From the NCBI GenBank assembly GCA_031082225.1, contig JAVHLG010000002.1, forward strand, positions 75,591 through 139,590: 64,000 nucleotides of DNA, given 5' to 3'. The stretch's first letter is position 1. Every line of letters begins with the position of its first letter. Below, piece after piece: positions 19,763-64,000 of the stretch. The position numbers and the translations under genes were made by a program. The notes under the pieces are model-generated. The model saw nothing but the letters and a program-made list of their open reading frames with translations, was not told the DNA's origin and made no database searches. The stretch comes from Desulfovibrionaceae bacterium. GTDB lineage: Bacteria > Desulfobacterota > Desulfovibrionia > Desulfovibrionales > Desulfovibrionaceae.

Positions 19763-20278
19763 GATGGCTCCTTGGGTTGTGTTCAGGGGCGCGCCAGGAC
19801 TGCGTCGCGCCCATGCGTTCCCGATTGTGCCTGTTCCCGGCGTTTGATGCAACGTGCCCGGGTGTCCTTTTGTCCGAATCCAAGGTCCGGGCCAAGGCGG
19901 CGCAAGGCCGTTGCGGCAACCCTCCAGGCCCGGCCGGAGGCGGGCCGGGAGTCGCCGTGGGCGACCAGTTGCGGGGGGACTTGTTTGAGGCTATAGGGTG
20001 TTGCCGTGAACGCAGGGTGGCCTGTCGCACGCGGCGACATGCCTTTAGACCGGCTGGAATCGCGCGACCGCCGGGCGGCGGGGCGACCATGGCCCCCATT
20101 CCCCTGCTGGAGAAGCCCTGCCGCGTGGCGGCCCGGGGATTTTCCGCCAAAACGGCGGGTGGCCTGGCGATGAACGCGCCTGGAAACCAGGACGGTCCGT
20201 GCGGTGGGACACCCCCGCGATCAATGGCGCTGCGCGCGATCCCTTCAACACGCCCCTCCCCTGCAGACATGGCATATT

Positions 20279-21478
20279 ATGAATGATATCGCAAAAATAA
20301 CTAAGTCGGATGTGAACGTCCCGTTGCCTGGGGGGAAAAGGAAAAAAAACCGTAGCAGGGTTTCCCCCTCCTTTCTCCAGAAGATGATTGCGTACGCCAG
20401 GGGGCACAAGCTCTTCATGGTCATGGTGGTCGTGCCTTCGGCCCTCAGCGTCTTGTATTTTGGATTGATCGAATCCGACATCTATGTTTCGGAATGCCGC
20501 TTTGTCGTGCGGCAGCCGGAGAGGAAAAATCTCTCTTCGCTGGGCTCCTTGTTGCAGAACATAGGGATTTCAAGCGTCAGGGAAGAGGCGTTCACCGTCA
20601 GGGAATACGTATTGTCGCGCGACGCCTTGAAAATCATTGATGAGAACCTCAATCTGAGGAAGGCGTTCGGAAGCAGCAAGGTCGATATCATCAACCGTTT
20701 CGACCCGCTGGGGATCGATGACAGCTTCGAGGCGCTGTACAAGTATTTTCTCGGCCAGGTCACGGTTGACGTCGATCTGACATCCTCCATCGCGACATTG
20801 ACAGCCAAGGCCTATGCTCCCAATGACGCCTTCAATATCAATGAAGGCCTGTTGTTCATGAGCGAGGGACTTATCAACAAGCTCAACGACAGGGCCAGGA
20901 AGGACATGCTGAGCATCGCGCTCAAGGATGTCGAGGACGCGGAGGCAGAGGCCAAGAATCGCGCCATGGCCCTGTCGATATACCAGGACAAGGAGATCCT
21001 GTTCGACCCGGCCCAGCAGTCCACCATGCAGTTGCAGCAGGTGGACAGGCTCCAGACCGAACTCATCGCCGTGCGCGGCCAGATCGCCCAGTACCGTGAG
21101 TTTGCTGCGGCGAGTTCGCAGATCCGGGCCCTGGAAAAACGGGCCAGCGAACTGCGCAAGGAGATCAATGCGGAGATGGCCAAGGTGGCCGGCGGAAGCG
21201 AGTCCATGAGCCAGAAGCTGATCGAATATGAGCGGCTCAAGCTCGACCGCGAATTTTCCGAGCAGAAGCTCGCCGCCGCCCTGACGTCGTTGGAGCAGGC
21301 CCGGGCCGAGGTGCAGCGGCAGCAGTTGTACCTTGAGCGCATCGTGATGCCGAACACGCCGGACAGCGCGATCTATCCCAGGCGGTTCTTGAACATATTG
21401 GCGGCGTTCGGCATGCTCTTCATCGTCTATGGCGTCGTGAAAATCCTTCTTATCGGCGTCCTTGAGCACCACGAATAA
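20279..21478 (+). CDS. kpsE: Capsule polysaccharide export inner-membrane protein (KpsE/BexC/CtrB-like)
   Basis: N-terminal TM LFMVMVVVPSALSVLYFGLIESDIYVSECRFVVRQPE, coiled-coil, C-terminal TM; precedes kpsM/kpsT homologues. Confidence 0.88.
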   Translation: MNDIAKITKSDVNVPLPGGKRKKNRSRVSPSFLQKMIAYARGHKLFMVMVVVPSALSVLYFGLIESDIYVSECRFVVRQPERKNLSSLGSLLQNIGISSVREEAFTVREYVLSRDALKIIDENLNLRKAFGSSKVDIINRFDPLGIDDSFEALYKYFLGQVTVDVDLTSSIATLTAKAYAPNDAFNINEGLLFMSEGLINKLNDRARKDMLSIALKDVEDAEAEAKNRAMALSIYQDKEILFDPAQQSTMQLQQVDRLQTELIAVRGQIAQYREFAAASSQIRALEKRASELRKEINAEMAKVAGGSESMSQKLIEYERLKLDREFSEQKLAAALTSLEQARAEVQRQQLYLERIVMPNTPDSAIYPRRFLNILAAFGMLFIVYGVVKILLIGVLEHHE

Positions 21479-22283
21479 TATGCCGGAAACCACACAGCAA
21501 ACGACATTCTCCCGCGCATTCCAGATTCAGATGCGCGTCGTCAGCGCCCTGCTCCGGCGCGAACTCATCGCCCTTTCCGGAAAAAAGGGGATCGGCTTTC
21601 TTCTAATGCTTGTGGAGCCGTTGATCTTTGTCTCTGCCATCTGCGTCTTTTTTTATTTGACACGAAGGACTGTTGGGAATGTCCCTGTCGTGGCGTTCGC
21701 CATGTCTGGATACTGTGTCATGTGGGGCTGCAGATTCCAGATGATGAAGATGATGAATGTTGTTGCCGCAAACAGATCGCTATTGTATCATAGGTATGTT
21801 AAAATTTTTGATTTGATGCTTGGACGTTCGATTCTTCAGATATGCAGCACGTCTATAAGTTTCTTAATGTTCGCCCCAATTATATATATAGGTCTTGTTG
21901 ATTTTCCGGTCAAGCCATATCTGGTTGTTTTCTCGTGGCTTGCCGTGTTGTGGTATGGATGGTCGTTGGGCCTGATTACCAGCTCTATATATGGCTTGGT
22001 AAAAATGGGAGAAAAAATTTGTATTGTAATCATGGTGTTGCACATTTGGATTACGGGTGCATTTATGATGGTCGAATGGTTGCCTCCTGATTACCGCGGA
22101 TATTATTTGTTATTTCCCATGGTCCATGCGACAGAAATGATGCGCGATGGGTTGTTCGGCAACAGGGTGACGGCACACTATAGTGTGTTGTACATGGTGT
22201 GCGCGAACATGGTTCTCACGTACCTGGGGCTTGTCCTGGTCCGAAAATTGTCACAGCGTGGAGCTATGGATGATTCGGATTAA
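21462..22283 (+). CDS. kpsM: ABC-2 type polysaccharide export permease
   Basis: Six-TM protein ~270 aa, FVSAICVFFYLTRRTVGNVPVVAFAMSGYCVMWGCR; ABC2_membrane pattern; overlaps flanking genes. Confidence 0.88.
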   Translation: MSTTNNMPETTQQTTFSRAFQIQMRVVSALLRRELIALSGKKGIGFLLMLVEPLIFVSAICVFFYLTRRTVGNVPVVAFAMSGYCVMWGCRFQMMKMMNVVAANRSLLYHRYVKIFDLMLGRSILQICSTSISFLMFAPIIYIGLVDFPVKPYLVVFSWLAVLWYGWSLGLITSSIYGLVKMGEKICIVIMVLHIWITGAFMMVEWLPPDYRGYYLLFPMVHATEMMRDGLFGNRVTAHYSVLYMVCANMVLTYLGLVLVRKLSQRGAMDDSD

Positions 22284-22941
22284 AGAGCTCTGTAAAAGCT
22301 ACAGAACGCGGCGCGGACCGCGTCAGATACTCAAGGACATCACCTGCACCGTGCACAAGGGTGAAAAGCTCGGCATCCTCGGCTGCAACGGGGCCGGGAA
22401 ATCCACCCTGATACGGATCATCGGCGGAATCGAAAACCCCACCAGCGGGTCCGTCACCCGCACCATGAGCGTGTCCTGGCCCCTGGCCTTTCAGGGCGGC
22501 CTGGCCGGGGGGCTTTCGGGACTGGACAACCTGCGGTTCATTTGCCGCATCTACCAGGTGGACTTTGTCGCCGCCCGGGCCTCGGTGGAGGAATTTTCCG
22601 AACTGGGCAACTATCTGCAGGAACCGGTCAAGTCCTATTCCGCAGGCATGCGGGCCAGGCTGGCCTTCGCCATCTCCATGACCGTGGATTTCGACTGCTA
22701 CCTCATCGACGAGGTTTCCGCCGTGGGCGACAGGCGCTTCAACGAGAAATTCAAAAACAGGCTCCTGGACAAGACCCGCGACCGGTCCATCATCATGGTG
22801 TCGCATTTTTACGGGGTGTTGCGGGAATATTGCAACCGGGCGGCGGTCTTGGACGCCGGCGTCCTGAGGGTGTACGACGATATCAAGGACGCCATTCACA
22901 ACTACGAGCAAATCCTGTATGGAAAAACCATAACCTTCTAG
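22270..22941 (+). CDS. kpsT: Polysaccharide export ABC transporter ATP-binding protein
   Basis: MIRIKELCKSYRTRRGPRQILKDITCTVHKGEKLGILGCNGAGKSTLIRIIGGIE; YSAGMRARLAFAISMTVDFDCYLIDEV. Confidence 0.93.
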   Translation: MIRIKELCKSYRTRRGPRQILKDITCTVHKGEKLGILGCNGAGKSTLIRIIGGIENPTSGSVTRTMSVSWPLAFQGGLAGGLSGLDNLRFICRIYQVDFVAARASVEEFSELGNYLQEPVKSYSAGMRARLAFAISMTVDFDCYLIDEVSAVGDRRFNEKFKNRLLDKTRDRSIIMVSHFYGVLREYCNRAAVLDAGVLRVYDDIKDAIHNYEQILYGKTITF

Positions 22942-22950
22942 TATCCTTGC

Positions 22951-23763
22951 ATGATTGATTTCGACAAACTCTTTTTCATCGCCGGGCCCTGCGTCATGGA
23001 AAGCGAGGATTTCGCCTATGCCTGCGCCTGCGCCCTGAAAGAGATCTTCGCCACGACCAACACGCCGTGGATCTTCAAGTCGTCCTTTGACAAGGCCAAC
23101 CGCAGCGCCTGCGACGGATTCCGGGGCATCCCCATGGACCGGGGCTTGCGGGTTCTGGAGAAAATCCGCAGCACTCTGGGCGTCGCCGTGCTGACCGACG
23201 TGCATGAGGCCTGGCAGGCAGGCCCTGTGGCCGAGGTCGCGGACGTCCTGCAGGTGCCGGCCCTGTTGTGCCGCCAGACGGATCTGGTCATGGCCGCCGC
23301 CGCCGCCGGGCGGCCCGTGAATTATAAAAAAGGCCAGTTCATGGCCCCCTGGGACATGGGCAATGTCATCGCCAAGGCCCGGCGCGCCGCGTCCGAGGCC
23401 GGACATGGCCCTGGGCAGTTCCTGGTGTGCGAGCGCGGAACCATGTTCGGCTACAACAACCTGGTGGTGGACATGCGCTCGTTTCCGCTCATGGCCGAGG
23501 CCACGGGGTGTCCGGTGGTGTTCGACGCCACGCATTCGGTGCAGCTTCCCGGGGCCCTGGGTTCGGCAAGCGGCGGCGACGCGGCCCTGGCCCCGGTCCT
23601 GGCCCGGGCGGCCATGGCCACAGGGCATGTCAGCGGTATTTTTTTCGAGACCCATCCCGAGCCTGCCAAGGCCTTGTGCGACGCCCACGTCATGCTCCCG
23701 TTCCGGGAGGTGGCCCCCCTGGTAGCCCAACTGCGCGCCATCGCCGCGAGCCTGCGTCCATGA
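22951..23763 (+). CDS. kdsA: 3-deoxy-8-phosphooctulonate synthase
   Basis: FFIAGPCVMESEDFAY, FKSSFDKANRSACDGFRGIPMDRGLRVLEKI, VLTDVHEAWQAGPVAEVADVLQVPALLCRQTDL. Confidence 0.96.
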   Translation: MIDFDKLFFIAGPCVMESEDFAYACACALKEIFATTNTPWIFKSSFDKANRSACDGFRGIPMDRGLRVLEKIRSTLGVAVLTDVHEAWQAGPVAEVADVLQVPALLCRQTDLVMAAAAAGRPVNYKKGQFMAPWDMGNVIAKARRAASEAGHGPGQFLVCERGTMFGYNNLVVDMRSFPLMAEATGCPVVFDATHSVQLPGALGSASGGDAALAPVLARAAMATGHVSGIFFETHPEPAKALCDAHVMLPFREVAPLVAQLRAIAASLRP

Positions 23764-24515
23764 ACGTCCCCCGCGTGGTCATCGTCATCCCGGCCCGGTA
23801 CGGCTCCACGCGACTGCCGGGCAAGCCCCTGGCGGACATCGGCGGCAGGCCCATGATCGTGCGCGTCCTGGAGCGGGCCAGGCTGGCCCGCGGCATGGCC
23901 CGGGTCGTGGTGGCCACGGACGATGCGCGCATCGCCGCCGCCGTGGCGGAGGCCGGGGGCGAGGCGGTGATGACCGGCAGCAGCCACGCCTCGGGGACGC
24001 TGCGGATCATCGAGGCCATGGAATCCATCGACGCCGGCATCTGCATCAATCTCCAGGGCGACGAGCCCCTGGCCGATCCCGCCCACCTGGAGCTTTTGGC
24101 CCGGACCATGACCGGCGACCCCGGCATCCCGGTGGCCACCCTGTGCTGTCCCATGTCCCGGGAGGAGGCCCTGTCGCCCCACGCCGTGAAGGTGGTGCTG
24201 TCGGAGAAGGGAAACGCCCTGTATTTCAGCCGGTCGCCGATCCCCCATGTCGCCGCCGACGACGCCGCGACCGTCTTTTTCCGGCACATCGGCATGTATG
24301 CCTATACGCGCCAGGCCCTGCTCCGTTTCCGGGAACTGCCGACGGGGATGCTGGAGCGGGCCGAGCGCCTGGAACAGTTGCGGTTTCTCTCCGGCGGGAT
24401 CCCGATCCGGGTGCTCACGGTCCGCGATGCGCCTCCCGGGGTGGATACGCCGTCCTGTCTGGAACGGGTCAGGGCCCTGTGGCGCGCCGCGCAGGAAAGG
24501 GAAGATCGACCATGA
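23760..24515 (+). CDS. kdsB: 3-deoxy-manno-octulosonate cytidylyltransferase (CMP-KDO synthetase)
   Basis: VVIVIPARYGSTRLPGKPLADIGGRPMIVRVLERA, LQGDEPL; ATGA overlap with kdsA. Confidence 0.95.
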   Translation: MNVPRVVIVIPARYGSTRLPGKPLADIGGRPMIVRVLERARLARGMARVVVATDDARIAAAVAEAGGEAVMTGSSHASGTLRIIEAMESIDAGICINLQGDEPLADPAHLELLARTMTGDPGIPVATLCCPMSREEALSPHAVKVVLSEKGNALYFSRSPIPHVAADDAATVFFRHIGMYAYTRQALLRFRELPTGMLERAERLEQLRFLSGGIPIRVLTVRDAPPGVDTPSCLERVRALWRAAQEREDRP

Positions 24516-25459
24516 ATCGATACGGCGATGTCTTTTTGCACACCATCCGGGTGGAGGCCACAGCGGCCATGTCCCTTCTGGAACACGACTTCACGGGCAT
24601 CGCCGCGGTCATCGACCGCATCATCCAGAGCAACGCCAAGCTCATCGTCACCGGCGTGGGCAAGTCCGGCATCATCGGCAAGAAAATCGCGGCCACCCTC
24701 TCCAGCACCGGGACTCCCAGCGTCTTTTTGCACGCCAGCGAGGCCTGCCATGGCGACGTGGGGGTCATCCGGGCCCCGGACATGGTCCTGGCCGTGTCCA
24801 AATCCGGGGAGACGGACGACATCCTCCGGCTCATCCCCTTTTTGAAGCACAACAGCATCTATCTGATCGCCATGACCGCCAACCGGCACTCCACCCTGGC
24901 CCGGTGCGCCGACTACCATATCGACGCCCATGTCTCGGAGGAGGCCTGTCCCCTGAAACTCGCCCCCACCTCGTCCACCACGGCGGCCCTGGTTCTGGGC
25001 GACGCCCTGGCCATGAGCCTCATGCACGCCAGGCGGTTCAACGCCGAGGATTTCGCCGTCTGCCACCCGGCCGGGCATCTGGGACGCCTGCTTTTGACCA
25101 CGGTGGAGATGGTCATGAAGACCGACCCCCTGCCGTTCGTCCGGGAAGGTACGCCGCTTCAGGAACTCCCCCTGGTCATGAGCGAGGGGCGCTGCGGCCT
25201 GGCCGTCATCATGGACGACGCGGACCGGGTCAGGGGCATCATCACCGACGGCGACCTGCGCCGGACCATGATGAAAAAAAACATCACGGGACTGCAAGAG
25301 GCTGTCGCCCGCGACATCATGACCACCCATCCGAAGATCGTCCCCCACGACATGCTCCTGGCCGACGCCAAGGGTATCATGCTCAAGGAGAAGATCACCT
25401 CGCTACTGGTGAAAAAAGAGGATCGGGTGGTCGGCATCGTGCAACTCTACGACATCTGA
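24512..25459 (+). CDS. kdsD: D-arabinose 5-phosphate isomerase (KdsD/KpsF)
   Basis: VTGVGKSGIIGKKIAATLSSTGTPSVFLHASEACHGDVGVI; SIS plus two CBS domains; overlaps kdsB stop. Confidence 0.94.
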   Translation: MNRYGDVFLHTIRVEATAAMSLLEHDFTGIAAVIDRIIQSNAKLIVTGVGKSGIIGKKIAATLSSTGTPSVFLHASEACHGDVGVIRAPDMVLAVSKSGETDDILRLIPFLKHNSIYLIAMTANRHSTLARCADYHIDAHVSEEACPLKLAPTSSTTAALVLGDALAMSLMHARRFNAEDFAVCHPAGHLGRLLLTTVEMVMKTDPLPFVREGTPLQELPLVMSEGRCGLAVIMDDADRVRGIITDGDLRRTMMKKNITGLQEAVARDIMTTHPKIVPHDMLLADAKGIMLKEKITSLLVKKEDRVVGIVQLYDI

Positions 25460-58260: not shown

Positions 58261-59406
58261 ATGAATCCAGCCTGCAAGGACATCACCTCGTTTCTGGTCA
58301 TGGACATCCTGGAAAAGGCCCAGGGCCTGGAGCGCCAGGGGCATCACGTCATCCACCTGGAGATCGGCGAACCCGACTTCGACACCCCGGACTGCGTCAA
58401 GGAGGCCGCCTGCCGGGCCATCCGCGACGGCAAGACCCACTACAGCCACAGCCTGGGCCTGATCGAACTGCGCGAGGCCATCTGCCGCCACTACGCCGCC
58501 GAATACGGGGTCACGGTGAAACCCCAGAACATCGTGGTCACGGGCGGCACCTCGGCGGCCCTGTTCCTCCTGTTTGCGGCCTTTGCCCGGCCAGGCGACG
58601 ACATCTTCCTGACGGACCCGGGCTATGCCTGCTATCCGAACTTCATCCGCTTCACCGGGGCCAATCCGGCCTACATCCCGGTCACCGAGGAGGACGGCTT
58701 CCAGTTCAATCCGGACGTCCTGGCGGCGCGCATCACTGAAAAGACCCGGGCCATCCTGGTCAATTCGCCCGGCAACCCGTCCGGCACCGTGCTCGGCGCG
58801 GACGCCATGCGCCGCATCTGCGGGCTCGGCCCGGTGATCATCTCGGACGAGATCTACCACGGCCTGGTCTACGAGGGGAAAGCCCGCAGCGCCCTGGAAT
58901 TTACGGACAACTGCTTTGTCTTAAACGGCTTTTCCAAGCTGCACGCCATGACCGGGTTTCGGCTGGGCTATCTCATCGCGCCGGAAAAGTACCTGTGCCT
59001 GCTCCAGAAACTGCAGCAGAATTTTTTCATCTGCGCCTCGTCCGTGGCCCAGTGGGCCGGGATCGCGGCCCTGACCGAGGCCGGGCCGGACATCGAGCGC
59101 ATGCGCAAAATCTACGACGAGCGGCGCAGGTTCCTGGTCAAGGGGCTTCGCGAACTGGGTTTCTCCATCCGGGTGGAGCCCACGGGGGCGTTTTACGTGC
59201 TGGTCAACGCCCGGCATCTCGGCGCGGACTCCCTGGCCCTGGCCCACGACATCCTGGAGACGGCCCACCTCGGGGTGACCCCGGGCATCGACTTCGGCCC
59301 GGGCGGCGAGGGACATTTGCGCTTTTCCTACGCCAATTCCCTGGAGAACATCGCCGAGGGGCTCAAAAGGCTCAAGGGGTATATCCAGGGGCGGCGCGCG
59401 GGCTAG
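58261..59406 (+). CDS. PLP-dependent class I/II aminotransferase
   Basis: IHLEIGEPDFDTPDCVKEAA...VNSPGNPSGTVL...ISDEIYHGLVYEGKARSAL...LNGFSKLHAMTGFRLGYLIAP. Confidence 0.93.
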   Translation: MNPACKDITSFLVMDILEKAQGLERQGHHVIHLEIGEPDFDTPDCVKEAACRAIRDGKTHYSHSLGLIELREAICRHYAAEYGVTVKPQNIVVTGGTSAALFLLFAAFARPGDDIFLTDPGYACYPNFIRFTGANPAYIPVTEEDGFQFNPDVLAARITEKTRAILVNSPGNPSGTVLGADAMRRICGLGPVIISDEIYHGLVYEGKARSALEFTDNCFVLNGFSKLHAMTGFRLGYLIAPEKYLCLLQKLQQNFFICASSVAQWAGIAALTEAGPDIERMRKIYDERRRFLVKGLRELGFSIRVEPTGAFYVLVNARHLGADSLALAHDILETAHLGVTPGIDFGPGGEGHLRFSYANSLENIAEGLKRLKGYIQGRRAG

Positions 59407-59718: not shown

Positions 59719-61497
59719 ATGGCGACAATTCCCATGGCCGTCAGTTGGAACATCAAAGTGCTCGACGCCTTCCCGGCGGACTACGCCGGGGAGTTCGTGG
59801 TCCGTTTCGGCCATGTCCCGGTCCCGGACGCCATCGACCCCCGCCTGCTGCACGACATACCCCGGCCATCCCCGGACTCGGCCCAATCCATCACGGCCAC
59901 GCCCCTGGATCTGATGCGCGGCGTGACGTTTCTGGTGGACCCCGGCTGTCCGGATATGGATATGGACGCCGTGACGGACGTGCAGATGGAATACCTGTAC
60001 CGCTACTACAAGGAGGTCGTCCTCCCCGGGAACTCGCCCCTGGCCCCGGCGGCGCAGGGGGTGCGCGGGCAGCAGGCCCCGGAGATCGTGCGCATCCTCA
60101 ACAGGCTGCGGAACATGCCCTACCTGCTGCGCTATCCGCTCACGCGCAGGCTGGCGGCCCAGGACGTCCGCCTGCCGGTGCTGGTCCTTTTGCCCGGGCC
60201 GTCGCTTCCCAGGATCGCGCCGCACCTGCCTGAGCTGGCCCGCAGCCACGTGGTGGTGGCGGTTTCCCGCACCCTCCGGTTTTGCCTGGAGCACGGGGTG
60301 ACGCCGGACTTCGTGGTGCAGCTCGACACCTATCTCATCCAGCGCGGTTTTTACGACGACCTGCCGCCCCTGCCCGACACCACCCTCGTCGCCTTGTCCA
60401 TCAGCCCGGTGTACGGGCTGGCCGACAGGTTCCGGGGCGTGCTGTTCATGGACAGCTTCGATCTGGCCGTTCTGAAAAATCCCTACCGCATGCGCGAGAA
60501 CGGCTTAAGCACCCTCATGGCCTGCATGGGGCTGGCCGAATGCATAAGCGCCCCCTATGCGCTTCTGGTCGGTGCGAACCTGAGCTTTCCCAACGACCAC
60601 CCCTCCTGGCATTATTACAACAGCCCCGGGAGAGGGACGGAGCGCCCGGCCCCGCCCCCCCCCTGCATCCAGGTCTCGGGCGACCGTCTCGTGTTGCGAA
60701 ACCGCGCCTCGCGCCGGGTCTACACCACCCTCATCTTTCTGGCCGTGGCCAGGGAGGCGGAGCGTTTCGCCCTGGACATCGGCCGCACGACAGGCGTCAG
60801 GTTCTACGTGGACACGGATGACGGCATCCTGCCCGGCTCAATTGCGACCCTGCGCCCCGAGGAACTGCTCCAGGCCCCGGCCGTGGACAAAACGGCCCTG
60901 GCGGAAAAAATAGACCGTGCCCTGTCCAGGTCGGAGACCGTGGAACTGATGCGCCTGAAACTGGACTGCGCCAAGGCGGTGCAGGCCCTGGATCAGAATA
61001 TCCTGATCCTGGAGTCGTGCCGGGTGCGAAAGGCCTATGGCGAGGTCGCGGACAATCCCATCGCCCTTTTTGCGCAGCAGGAGCGGGATTTCAATCTTCC
61101 GGCGGACCCCGAGGTCCGGCTGGGATTTTCCGTGCGCATCGCCCGGAAGTGGCGCCAAGCGGCCGTCCAGGTCCGCAACCTGGCCCAGGCGCATATGATC
61201 GCCCGGCGGGGGGGGGCCATTCCCCTGGTCTGCCTGCCCCATGAGGCGGCGGGCCCGTTTGCGGACCTGGCGCGGCTGTTCCCGGGATTCGTCTGGGACG
61301 TCCGGCCCGTGGTGAGCCCCACGGACCGCCAGTGGCCGGTTTTTCCGCGCTCCGTGTTCTACCTGGCCCTGCATCAGACCCTGGCGTCCCTTCAGGTGGC
61401 CTTTGTGACCGCCGCCGTCCGGGAGGTCTACGGCTATCATTTTGAGGTCTACGGCGGAGACAATCTGTACCATCTGGCCCCCCTGCCGCAGGAGTGA
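59719..61497 (+). CDS. DUF115 / MptE-like / motility accessory factor (Maf)-type protein
   Basis: VLLPGPSLPRIAPHLPELARSHVVVAVSRTLRFCLEHGVTPDFVVQLDTYL; GANLSFPNDHPSWHYYN. Confidence 0.78.
   Translation: MATIPMAVSWNIKVLDAFPADYAGEFVVRFGHVPVPDAIDPRLLHDIPRPSPDSAQSITATPLDLMRGVTFLVDPGCPDMDMDAVTDVQMEYLYRYYKEVVLPGNSPLAPAAQGVRGQQAPEIVRILNRLRNMPYLLRYPLTRRLAAQDVRLPVLVLLPGPSLPRIAPHLPELARSHVVVAVSRTLRFCLEHGVTPDFVVQLDTYLIQRGFYDDLPPLPDTTLVALSISPVYGLADRFRGVLFMDSFDLAVLKNPYRMRENGLSTLMACMGLAECISAPYALLVGANLSFPNDHPSWHYYNSPGRGTERPAPPPPCIQVSGDRLVLRNRASRRVYTTLIFLAVAREAERFALDIGRTTGVRFYVDTDDGILPGSIATLRPEELLQAPAVDKTALAEKIDRALSRSETVELMRLKLDCAKAVQALDQNILILESCRVRKAYGEVADNPIALFAQQERDFNLPADPEVRLGFSVRIARKWRQAAVQVRNLAQAHMIARRGGAIPLVCLPHEAAGPFADLARLFPGFVWDVRPVVSPTDRQWPVFPRSVFYLALHQTLASLQVAFVTAAVREVYGYHFEVYGGDNLYHLAPLPQE
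60655..60663 (+). repeat. C9 homopolymer inside the DUF115 CDS
   Basis: GCCCCG-CCCCCCCCC-TGC encoding APPPPC. Confidence 0.95.
61208..61216 (+). repeat. G9 homopolymer inside the DUF115 CDS
   Basis: CGGC-GGGGGGGGG-CCATT encoding RRGGAI. Confidence 0.95.
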
Positions 61498-61501
61498 GGA
61501 C

Positions 61502-62878
61502 ATGGCCGAGAAAGCGTACGCAATCATCCTGGCGGGCGGCGCGGGGGAGCGCATGGAATCCCCGACCCCCAAGCAGTTCCTCAAACTGGCCGGACGCACG
61601 GTCATCGAACACACGCTTGCGGCCTTTGAGAACCATCCGCGTATCGACGGCATCTTCGTGGTCTGCAATCCCAAATACCGCCTGCTGATGGAGGAGCTGC
61701 TGCTGCGCGGTCCGCTCAAAAAGGTCGTCAAGGTGCTGGGCGGCGGGAAAAGCCGGATGGAGAGCTCCCGGGCCGGGGTCTTGGCCGTGCCCGAGGACGA
61801 GGCCAAGGTGCTCCTGCACGACGCCGTGCGGCCGTTCGTTTCGGCGCGCATCATCGACGACTGCATCGACGCCCTGGACCGTTTCGTGGCCGTGGACGTG
61901 GCCATTCCGGCCACGGACACCATCATCGAGGTCAACGACATGGCCTGCATCGCCTCGATCCCCTCGCGCAGCCGCCTGCAACAGGGCCAGACCCCCCAGG
62001 GCTTCCGGGCCGGGGTCATCAAGAAGGCCCACCGCCTGGCGGCCGGGGACCGCTCCATCTCCGTCACCGACGACTGCGGCCTCATCCTGCGCTACGGCCT
62101 GGGGGACATCTATGTGGTGCGCGGCGAAAACAAGAACATCAAGATCACCCACACCGAGGACCTCTTCCTGGCCGACAAGATCTTCCAGATCAACACCGCC
62201 CGGGCCGACTCCCGCATCGACCTGTCCCTGCTCAAGGGCAGGACCGTGGCGGTCTTCGGGGCCTCCCAGGGCATCGGGGCGGCCGTGGCCTACATGGCCC
62301 GGGCCCACGAGGCCCGGGTGCACGGGTTTTCCCGGTCAAGCGGCGTCGACGTCGCGGATGCGGCGGCCGTGGAGGCCGCCCTGTCCGGTGTCGCGCGGGC
62401 CGAGGGCCGCATCGACTATGTGGTCAACACCGCCGCCGTGCTGCGTTTCGGTCGGCTCATGGACCGGCGCATGGCCGAGGTGCGGGCCGAGATCGACACG
62501 AATTTCGTGGGCAACCTCAACGTGGTCCGGGCGGCCCTGCCGCATCTGGCCTCCAGCCGGGGCAGCATCGCCCTTTTCACCTCCAGTTCGTTCACCCGGG
62601 GCCGGGCCCTGTATTCGGTCTATTCCTCGTCCAAGGCGGCCACGGTGAACCTGGTGCAGGCCATCGCCGAGGAGATGGCCGCTGCCGACGTGCGCATCAA
62701 CGCCATCAATCCCGAGCGCACGGCCACGCCCATGCGCACGGAGAATTTCGGCCAGGAACCGCCCGAGACCCTGCTCGACCCGAAGGACGTGGCCGCCGCC
62801 ACCCTGCGCACCCTGCTGTCGCCGTTTTCGGGCATGGTGGTGGACGTGCGCCTGACGGACAGGCCGTGCCAGGCCTAG
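61502..62878 (+). CDS. Bifunctional IspD-type cytidylyltransferase / short-chain dehydrogenase (CDP-ribitol synthesis-like, Bcs1/Acs1-type)
   Basis: N-terminal AIILAGGAGERMESPTPKQFLKLAGRTVIEHTLAAFE; C-terminal SDR AVFGASQGIGAAVAYMA with YSVYSSSKAATVNL. Confidence 0.88.
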   Translation: MAEKAYAIILAGGAGERMESPTPKQFLKLAGRTVIEHTLAAFENHPRIDGIFVVCNPKYRLLMEELLLRGPLKKVVKVLGGGKSRMESSRAGVLAVPEDEAKVLLHDAVRPFVSARIIDDCIDALDRFVAVDVAIPATDTIIEVNDMACIASIPSRSRLQQGQTPQGFRAGVIKKAHRLAAGDRSISVTDDCGLILRYGLGDIYVVRGENKNIKITHTEDLFLADKIFQINTARADSRIDLSLLKGRTVAVFGASQGIGAAVAYMARAHEARVHGFSRSSGVDVADAAAVEAALSGVARAEGRIDYVVNTAAVLRFGRLMDRRMAEVRAEIDTNFVGNLNVVRAALPHLASSRGSIALFTSSSFTRGRALYSVYSSSKAATVNLVQAIAEEMAAADVRINAINPERTATPMRTENFGQEPPETLLDPKDVAAATLRTLLSPFSGMVVDVRLTDRPCQA

Positions 62879-62976
62879 CGGCACAAGAAAACGGCCGTGT
62901 CTCGGATGCGGAAAGATCGTTTCGAGTCGTACCGGATCACGGTGCGATATCACCGTCGAGGACGCCATAGACGCAC

Positions 62977-64000
62977 ATGGAACCAGACCAGATCAGAATC
63001 ATAGCCCGCTTTCTCGCCGAGCGGCCGCGCCAGCCGGAGAACATCGCCTTCGTCAGCGGGGCTGACGGCCAGTTTGCCGGAAACGTCAAATACCTGTTCC
63101 TGCACTTCGCCAGGCACGTCCCGCAGTGCAAAAGCGTTTTCGTGACCACAAGCCCTGATGTGCCCAGGGCCCTGCGGGGCCTGGGCCTTGCGGCGGCCTG
63201 CTTCCCCTCCCAGGATGCCCTGGAGGCCCTGGCCAGGGCCTCGGTGGTGGTGGCCGACGGCTTCCAGTACCGGGAAAAGGGCATGGCGGTGTTCGCCATC
63301 GGCGCGAAGACCGTGCAGTTGTGGCATGGCGTGGGTTTCAAGAAGATAGGATTCGTCGAGGCCGAGACCTCCCTGGATCTGCCGCCCGAGCGGCGGACTT
63401 ACCTGCGGGAGATGTATTCCGGTTACGACGCCGTGGTGTCCACCTCCCCGTTTTATACGGAGCATCTTTTCAAGACGTCGTTCGGAGCCAGGGAGATATG
63501 GGAGACGGGGTACCCCCGCAACGACGTCCTGGTACGCCCGGTCGCCAAAGACGACCTCGTCGGTTGCGACCTGGAGGGCTACGCCCGGGTCCGGGTCCTG
63601 GGCAAACGCTTCCGGCTGTGCCTGTACGCCCCCACGTTTCGGGACGACAGCGGGGATTTCTTTCTGCGCGGTCCGTTATGCTTCGAGTCCCTGTCGCGGT
63701 TCCTCGAGCGGGAGGGTATGGTGCTCTTTCTCAAGATGCACGCCTTCACGGAGGCCCGTCTCGGCAGCGAATTCACGAATATCCAGGTCATCGACCACGC
63801 AAGCGACGTCTATCCGCTGCTGCCGCATTTCTCCTGCCTGATCACGGATTATTCCTCGATCTACATGGATTATCTGCACCTCGACCGTCCCGTGGTGTTT
63901 TTTCCCTTCGACCGGGACGACTACGCCTCCCGGATGCGGGAGTTCCAGTTCGACTACGACGCCATGACTCCGGGCCCCAAGTGTTTCACCCAGGACGATC
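62977..64000 (+). CDS. CDP-glycerol/ribitol phosphotransferase (TagB/TagF-like), truncated by window end
   Basis: Read directly (not in ORF track): MEPDQIRIIARFLAERPRQPENIAFVSGADGQFAGNVKYLFLHFARHVPQ...QLWHGVGFKKIGF...LYAPTFRDDSGDFF...LITDYSSIYMDYLHLDRPVVFFPFDRDDY; open to the last base. Confidence 0.9.
   Translation, partial: MEPDQIRIIARFLAERPRQPENIAFVSGADGQFAGNVKYLFLHFARHVPQCKSVFVTTSPDVPRALRGLGLAAACFPSQDALEALARASVVVADGFQYREKGMAVFAIGAKTVQLWHGVGFKKIGFVEAETSLDLPPERRTYLREMYSGYDAVVSTSPFYTEHLFKTSFGAREIWETGYPRNDVLVRPVAKDDLVGCDLEGYARVRVLGKRFRLCLYAPTFRDDSGDFFLRGPLCFESLSRFLEREGMVLFLKMHAFTEARLGSEFTNIQVIDHASDVYPLLPHFSCLITDYSSIYMDYLHLDRPVVFFPFDRDDYASRMREFQFDYDAMTPGPKCFTQDD

Follow-up and report, generated by a model that had tools for sequence, protein, structure and literature searches.

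Polymer systems characterised so far rely on several PF04464 proteins or on a polymerase with more than one domain, and the Maf family is known for protein O-glycosylation. In Haemophilus, Bcs1 has been shown to make CDP-ribitol (PMC10299916). Structural work on Bcs3 located TagF P447 at the flank of the glycerol pocket; this proline is conserved in glycerol-phosphate transferases, and ribitol-phosphate transferases carry a glycine at the same site (PMC10299916). In C. difficile type A, the TagF-like protein CD0244 is needed for the GlcNAc phosphodiester of flagellin, and its loss leaves GlcNAc only (PMC10714395). Furthermore, ribitol genes have previously been noted in flagellin islands of two enterobacterial strains (PMC4875605). 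We found no paper on ribitol in Desulfovibrio envelopes.

We analysed a stretch of 64,000 nucleotides, hereafter the window, on contig C73 of a Desulfovibrionaceae draft genome (4.08 Mb in 150 contigs) from a Gram-negative organism of the sulfate-reducer type. At its end lies a compact cassette of three plus-strand genes (Table 1), which is complete only with 149 bases beyond the window end. The second gene, a fusion, begins with the ATG at 61502, 4 bases past the stop of the Maf-like gene, and the GGAG box ahead of it spans the junction. The cassette is flanked by housekeeping genes; on the 3′ side, an aconitase gene and a ppiD-like gene are followed by the contig end, 4417 bases after the window. 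The preliminary description of the locus had proposed looking for more glycosyl- or phosphotransferases past position 64000; neither these nor envelope genes were found up to the contig end. A polymer locus extending beyond the window was ruled out, as housekeeping genes come next. Within the cassette, we found no polymerase, flippase or exporter.

Table 1. Features of the window and related loci (window coordinates, or locus handles for other genomes)
Feature	Position	Strand	Evidence or remark
Maf-like (PF01973, MptE-like/Maf_flag10) putative glycosyltransferase, 592 aa	59719..61497	+	Pfam PF01973, E = 4e-14
Bcs1/Acs1-like predicted bifunctional CDP-ribitol synthase (IspD/TarI-type cytidylyltransferase + SDR reductase), 458 aa	61502..62878	+	PF01128, PF00106
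TagF/TarF-like polyol-phosphate transferase, 390 aa	62977..64000, on to 64149 outside the window	+	PF04464, E = 3e-57
PLP aminotransferase, upstream flank	58261..59406	+	Border of the variable slot; 94% identity in congener G069
kpsE-kpsM-kpsT-kdsA-kdsB-kpsF, group-2 capsule-type export and CMP-Kdo module	about 20276..25459	+	Judged to lie outside the cassette system
Pro-type PF04464/PF12804 loci of Desulfovibrionaceae	L052, L053, L055-L061, L063, L064, L066-L070, L073		

The proposed resemblance of the fusion to H. influenzae Bcs1/Acs1 was borne out. As in the latter, an IspD/TarI-type cytidylyltransferase (PF01128, E = 9e-52, residues 27–248) is fused to an SDR reductase (PF00106, E = 2e-28, residues 302–436; numbering of the longer TTG frame), and the GxxxGIG and YxxxK motifs of the SDR half can be read as GASQGIG and YSSSK. 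Relatives of the fusion bear the annotation ‘bifunctional cytidylyltransferase/SDR family oxidoreductase’. The protein passes the general IspD model TIGR00453 and falls 1.6 bits short of the D-ribitol-5-phosphate model NF001183, so that family models alone do not settle its identity. The cytidylyltransferase half carries HDAVRP and GQTPQ, the same as four TarI structures, with HDxARP and VQTPQ found instead in B. subtilis IspD and the genome’s own IspD. A separate IspD–IspF fusion (IspDF) for isoprenoids is present on contig C113, which rules out the cassette fusion as the isoprenoid IspD of the cell. With its architecture, the TarI-type residues and the separate IspDF in agreement, production of CDP-ribitol, the product already suggested for this gene, is a well-supported prediction. 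In contrast to Bcs1/Acs1, the fusion, known here from its sequence, lies outside any capsule cluster and has as neighbours a Maf-like gene and the gene of a small transferase. A phylum-wide scan (E ≤ 1e-70) detected it in one of 395 sampled genomes; a query across named genomes returned distant relatives only, full length in two Actinobacteria, and a scan of phages yielded nothing beyond half-length IspD matches.

Downstream of the fusion, the TagB/TagF-like CDP-polyol phosphotransferase described earlier as running off the window was recovered, and in its complete copy (L002:4978-6150) the PF04464 match is on the first 374 aa. The protein aligns with the TagF and TarL structures and retains both catalytic histidines (WHG and KMH). 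At the position of TagF Pro447 it has a glycine (WHGVG), the switch also seen in CroT; TarL, a ribitol-phosphate polymerase, likewise shows V-G at this site. When the window protein was compared with 30 family relatives, glycine was present in all Bcs1-linked (7/7) and Maf-like-linked (4/4) copies from Desulfovibrionaceae and proline in all copies that were linked to an NTP transferase (17/17) or partnerless (3/3); the two groups are largely separate clades, and the 11 versus 20 split does not represent 31 independent events. The transferase tree also splits by partner, with NTP-linked copies apart from Bcs1- and Maf-linked ones, bar one mis-called fragment (L069). Published rule, partner gene and residue all agree, and ribitol is well supported as the predicted specificity. 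Unlike TagF, TarL and Bcs3-CroT, the window transferase is a single domain with neither a polymerase extension nor a second transferase, and a whole-genome search revealed it as the only PF04464 protein. A wall teichoic acid or polyribitol-phosphate pathway needs a primase plus a polymerase, supplied as several PF04464 proteins or as one polymerase of multiple domains, and neither arrangement was found in the genome. Of the ribitol- or glycerol-phosphate polymer envisaged in the preliminary description, ribitol is upheld by the glycine, whereas the polymer is not supported, the transferase being a lone, single-domain protein. A second, commoner pair in the family consists of a Pro-type PF04464 protein (WHG[IV]P) adjoining a PF12804 NTP transferase; plasmids of Solidesulfovibrio (pDMC1) carry it too, with a shortened NTP transferase beside a Tn3 transposase.

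The first gene had not been recognised as Maf-like, and this assignment changes the likely product of the cassette. Pfam lists its domain, PF01973, as MptE-like; work on flagellin glycosylation uses the name Maf_flag10 (PMC11339370). A PDB search with the sequence alone gave no match; profile and model were needed. The top fold match of the AlphaFold2 model (pLDDT 87, 15-sequence alignment) was the Maf glycosyltransferase 5MU5 (probability 1.00, E = 6.5e-10, 514 columns), which was also the top profile match (E = 0.013), and the M. jannaschii pterin kinase ranked behind it, matching the central domain only. Because the TM-score was low (0.38/0.36), we regard the protein as a distant relative of 5MU5. 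It shares the central Maf_flag10 domain and the best fold match with the Maf flagellin glycosyltransferases (5MU5; Aeromonas, Campylobacter), and differs in the low overall score of this putative glycosyltransferase and in a gene located away from flagellin genes. No flagellin gene lies next to the cassette in the window genome. In genome G090, a flagellin gene 16 kb from the cassette was not counted as adjacent, with unrelated genes in between (two-component, TonB-receptor-like and an RND-type efflux system, as read from the ORFs). All cassette genomes encode flagellin, as do all 30 of the 119 sampled family genomes that have Maf-like relatives (106 of 119 overall, p = 0.04), but its presence says little, because it is near universal in Desulfovibrionaceae. 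Transmembrane segments were absent from the fusion and the transferase, with at most one borderline segment in the Maf-like protein. The genome has just one further PF01973 gene, and some 5 kb separate it from a gene that encodes a Flagellin_N domain (L013:2995-3819 and L013:9108-10880, contig C150). A NeuB-family nonulosonate synthase is encoded on contig C62 (L112:13753-14874; PF03102, E = 2e-70), and the organism may thus hold a nonulosonic acid donor of the Maf type.

Among the 119 family genomes, seven encode Bcs1, each with an adjacent PF04464 gene. The Maf-like family is present in all seven as well (1.8 expected, p = 4e-5, a statistic that ignores relatedness). The window genome, G014, G046 and G090 have the three genes side by side; in the three genomes of genus g14, bcs1–transferase and transferase–Maf-like form two pairs at separate loci. 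G013, G054 and G077, which belong to one genus, each have two PF04464 copies, the first with bcs1 and the second with the Maf-like gene as its neighbour; both copies have the Gly motif (L048/L065, L049/L062 and L050/L075), and such pairs possibly serve successive ribitol-phosphate additions. The genes on either side are 88–94% identical in congener G069, whose slot lacks bcs1 and the PF04464 gene. Since the flanks are kept and the content differs, the slot varies between congeners. Between aminotransferase and aconitase (L122:6548-9873), G069 holds a Maf-like gene with 30% identity on the opposite strand and an unrelated ORF without a Pfam match; in G029 (L115), a relative of this ORF likewise has a Maf-like gene close by.

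We propose that the cassette is an accessory operon whose cytoplasmic products decorate a glycan with ribitol-phosphate. The SDR half of the fusion would use NADPH to reduce D-ribulose 5-phosphate, and addition of CMP by the IspD/TarI half would yield CDP-ribitol, from which the PF04464 protein would move ribitol 5-phosphate to an acceptor hydroxyl under release of CMP. Judged from sequence, these two steps are well supported. The acceptor would be a sugar that the Maf-like enzyme of the cassette attaches, in the most plausible case to a protein which, like flagellin, has its own export route; the product could then dispense with flippase, polymerase and capsule exporter. We expect the addition of one or a few ribitol-phosphates rather than a long teichoic acid. 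Donor, acceptor, number of residues and cellular location are what we infer, and we assign a probability of about 0.5 to the reading as a whole, from CDP-ribitol and its use in transfer to the Maf-placed, protein-linked sugar. The separate loci in genus g14 and the lack of adjoining flagellin genes in the window genome speak against it, and so does a donor specificity that is based on one residue and homology.

By analogy, the flagellin modification of C. difficile type A may be taken as a comparable system and the closest worked precedent. Its gene set (CD0240-CD0244), like that of P. aeruginosa FgtA, combines a cytidylyltransferase, a TagF-like protein and a glycosyltransferase. In both, the phosphodiester is placed on a protein-linked sugar, the acceptor that we would expect for the cassette, and the predicted donor is CDP-threonine, made by an enzyme resembling phosphocholine cytidylyltransferase; the cassette differs in its predicted donor CDP-ribitol and its Maf-type glycosyltransferase. 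If our reading holds, there is a further likeness to eukaryotic ISPD, FKTN and FKRP, where CDP-ribitol is the source of the ribitol-phosphate on a protein-linked glycan (alpha-dystroglycan); to our knowledge, an SDR reductase is not part of ISPD. FKRP belongs to the LicD/nucleotidyltransferase type (PMC11666461) and, unlike the cassette transferase, unrelated to PF04464. We tentatively suggest that bacteria may have a pathway devoted to placing ribitol-phosphate on a glycan of flagellin or another Maf substrate, and the same caution applies to its functional parallel with alpha-dystroglycan, reached by unrelated transferases.

Ribitol-phosphate might instead be destined for LPS core, O-antigen or another lipid-linked glycan. 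Elsewhere, Bcs1-like fusions are found in clusters for lipid-linked polysaccharides, as in Parabacteroides with Wzy, a sugar transporter and LicD, and some cassettes of relatives lie near sugar-transferase genes, e.g., GT9 and CgeB-like. However, inspection of the cassette surroundings showed no flippase, ligase, Wzy or ABC exporter, the flanks in the window genome are housekeeping genes, and the recurrent partner belongs to a family of protein O-glycosylation; we consider a lipid-linked acceptor less likely than a protein-linked one. The same architecture could also handle another CDP-polyol, such as CDP-arabitol, -glucitol or -heptitol: the substrate range of an SDR is not predictable from sequence, and CDP-glucitol is known in Campylobacter (PMC10918830). 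With CDP-ribitol as the product of Bcs1, the nearest characterised fusion of this architecture, and with TarI-type residues and a Gly switch that fit ribitol, a different polyol appears improbable.

The export module, placed 34–38 kb away in the preliminary description, is genuine and lies 34–39 kb upstream of the cassette. Its kdsB (TIGR00466) and kpsF (TIGR00393) score above the curated cut-off, kpsE (TIGR01010, E = 8e-96) and kpsM (NF050053, E = 7e-16) have these as their best families though below cut-off, and the Pfam matches of the module include PF00793, PF02348 and PF01380. The preliminary description had taken module and cassette as split loci for one exported polymer. A polyribitol-phosphate-type capsule leaving through this KpsEMT would accord with the location of both modules inside the window and with H. 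influenzae b, which joins Bcs1, a TagF-like polymerase and Bex (PMC10299916), yet the comparative data make it very unlikely. A Bcs3-like polymerase is absent from the genome. KpsM relatives, found in 15 of the 119 genomes, coincide with Bcs1 only in the window genome (0.9 expected) and with PF04464 of any kind in four genomes (4.3 expected). The KpsEMT-Kdo module is missing from all six other sampled cassette genomes, and both sampled congeners, G041 and G069, have KpsM and lack Bcs1 and the transferase. Synthesis genes linked to or inherited with a Bex/Kps exporter, as in the H. influenzae a/b type, were thus not found. Moreover, KpsC, KpsS and Poly_export, the partners that the window module lacks, are encoded on contig C62 beside a polyketide synthase. 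In the row on C62 (L111:6066-20000, L112:1-3811), KpsC and KpsS enclose a modular polyketide synthase (KS-AT-DH-MT-ER), followed by an AONS-like PLP enzyme. Poly_export is matched roughly 5 kb upstream of this row; the locus lacks KpsMT and is probably the true partner of kpsEMT-kdsAB-kpsF. Least probable of all, the PF04464 protein could be a CpsA-like transition transferase that primes the KpsC/KpsS Kdo linker for a capsule built by another enzyme. Transition transferases of the CpsA type belong to PF04464 and act on poly-Kdo glycolipid (PMC11666461), and KpsC and KpsS are present in the genome, but Tyr94 of Cps7A replaces the TagF WHG histidine (PMC11666461), which the window protein keeps, and the cassette does not co-occur with Kps. 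On present evidence, the CDP-ribitol part of the earlier interpretation was right and the capsule-exported polymer wrong.

Lone PF04464 genes in Gram-negatives call for caution with the label ‘teichoic acid’ locus. If the decoration reading is right, glycine or proline after WHGx would provide a one-residue rule that sorts CDP-polyol transferases by partner across Desulfovibrionaceae, the cassette would offer a defined three-enzyme set to test TagF-like enzymes on non-polymer acceptors, and ribitol-phosphate would join the chemistry of bacterial protein glycans.
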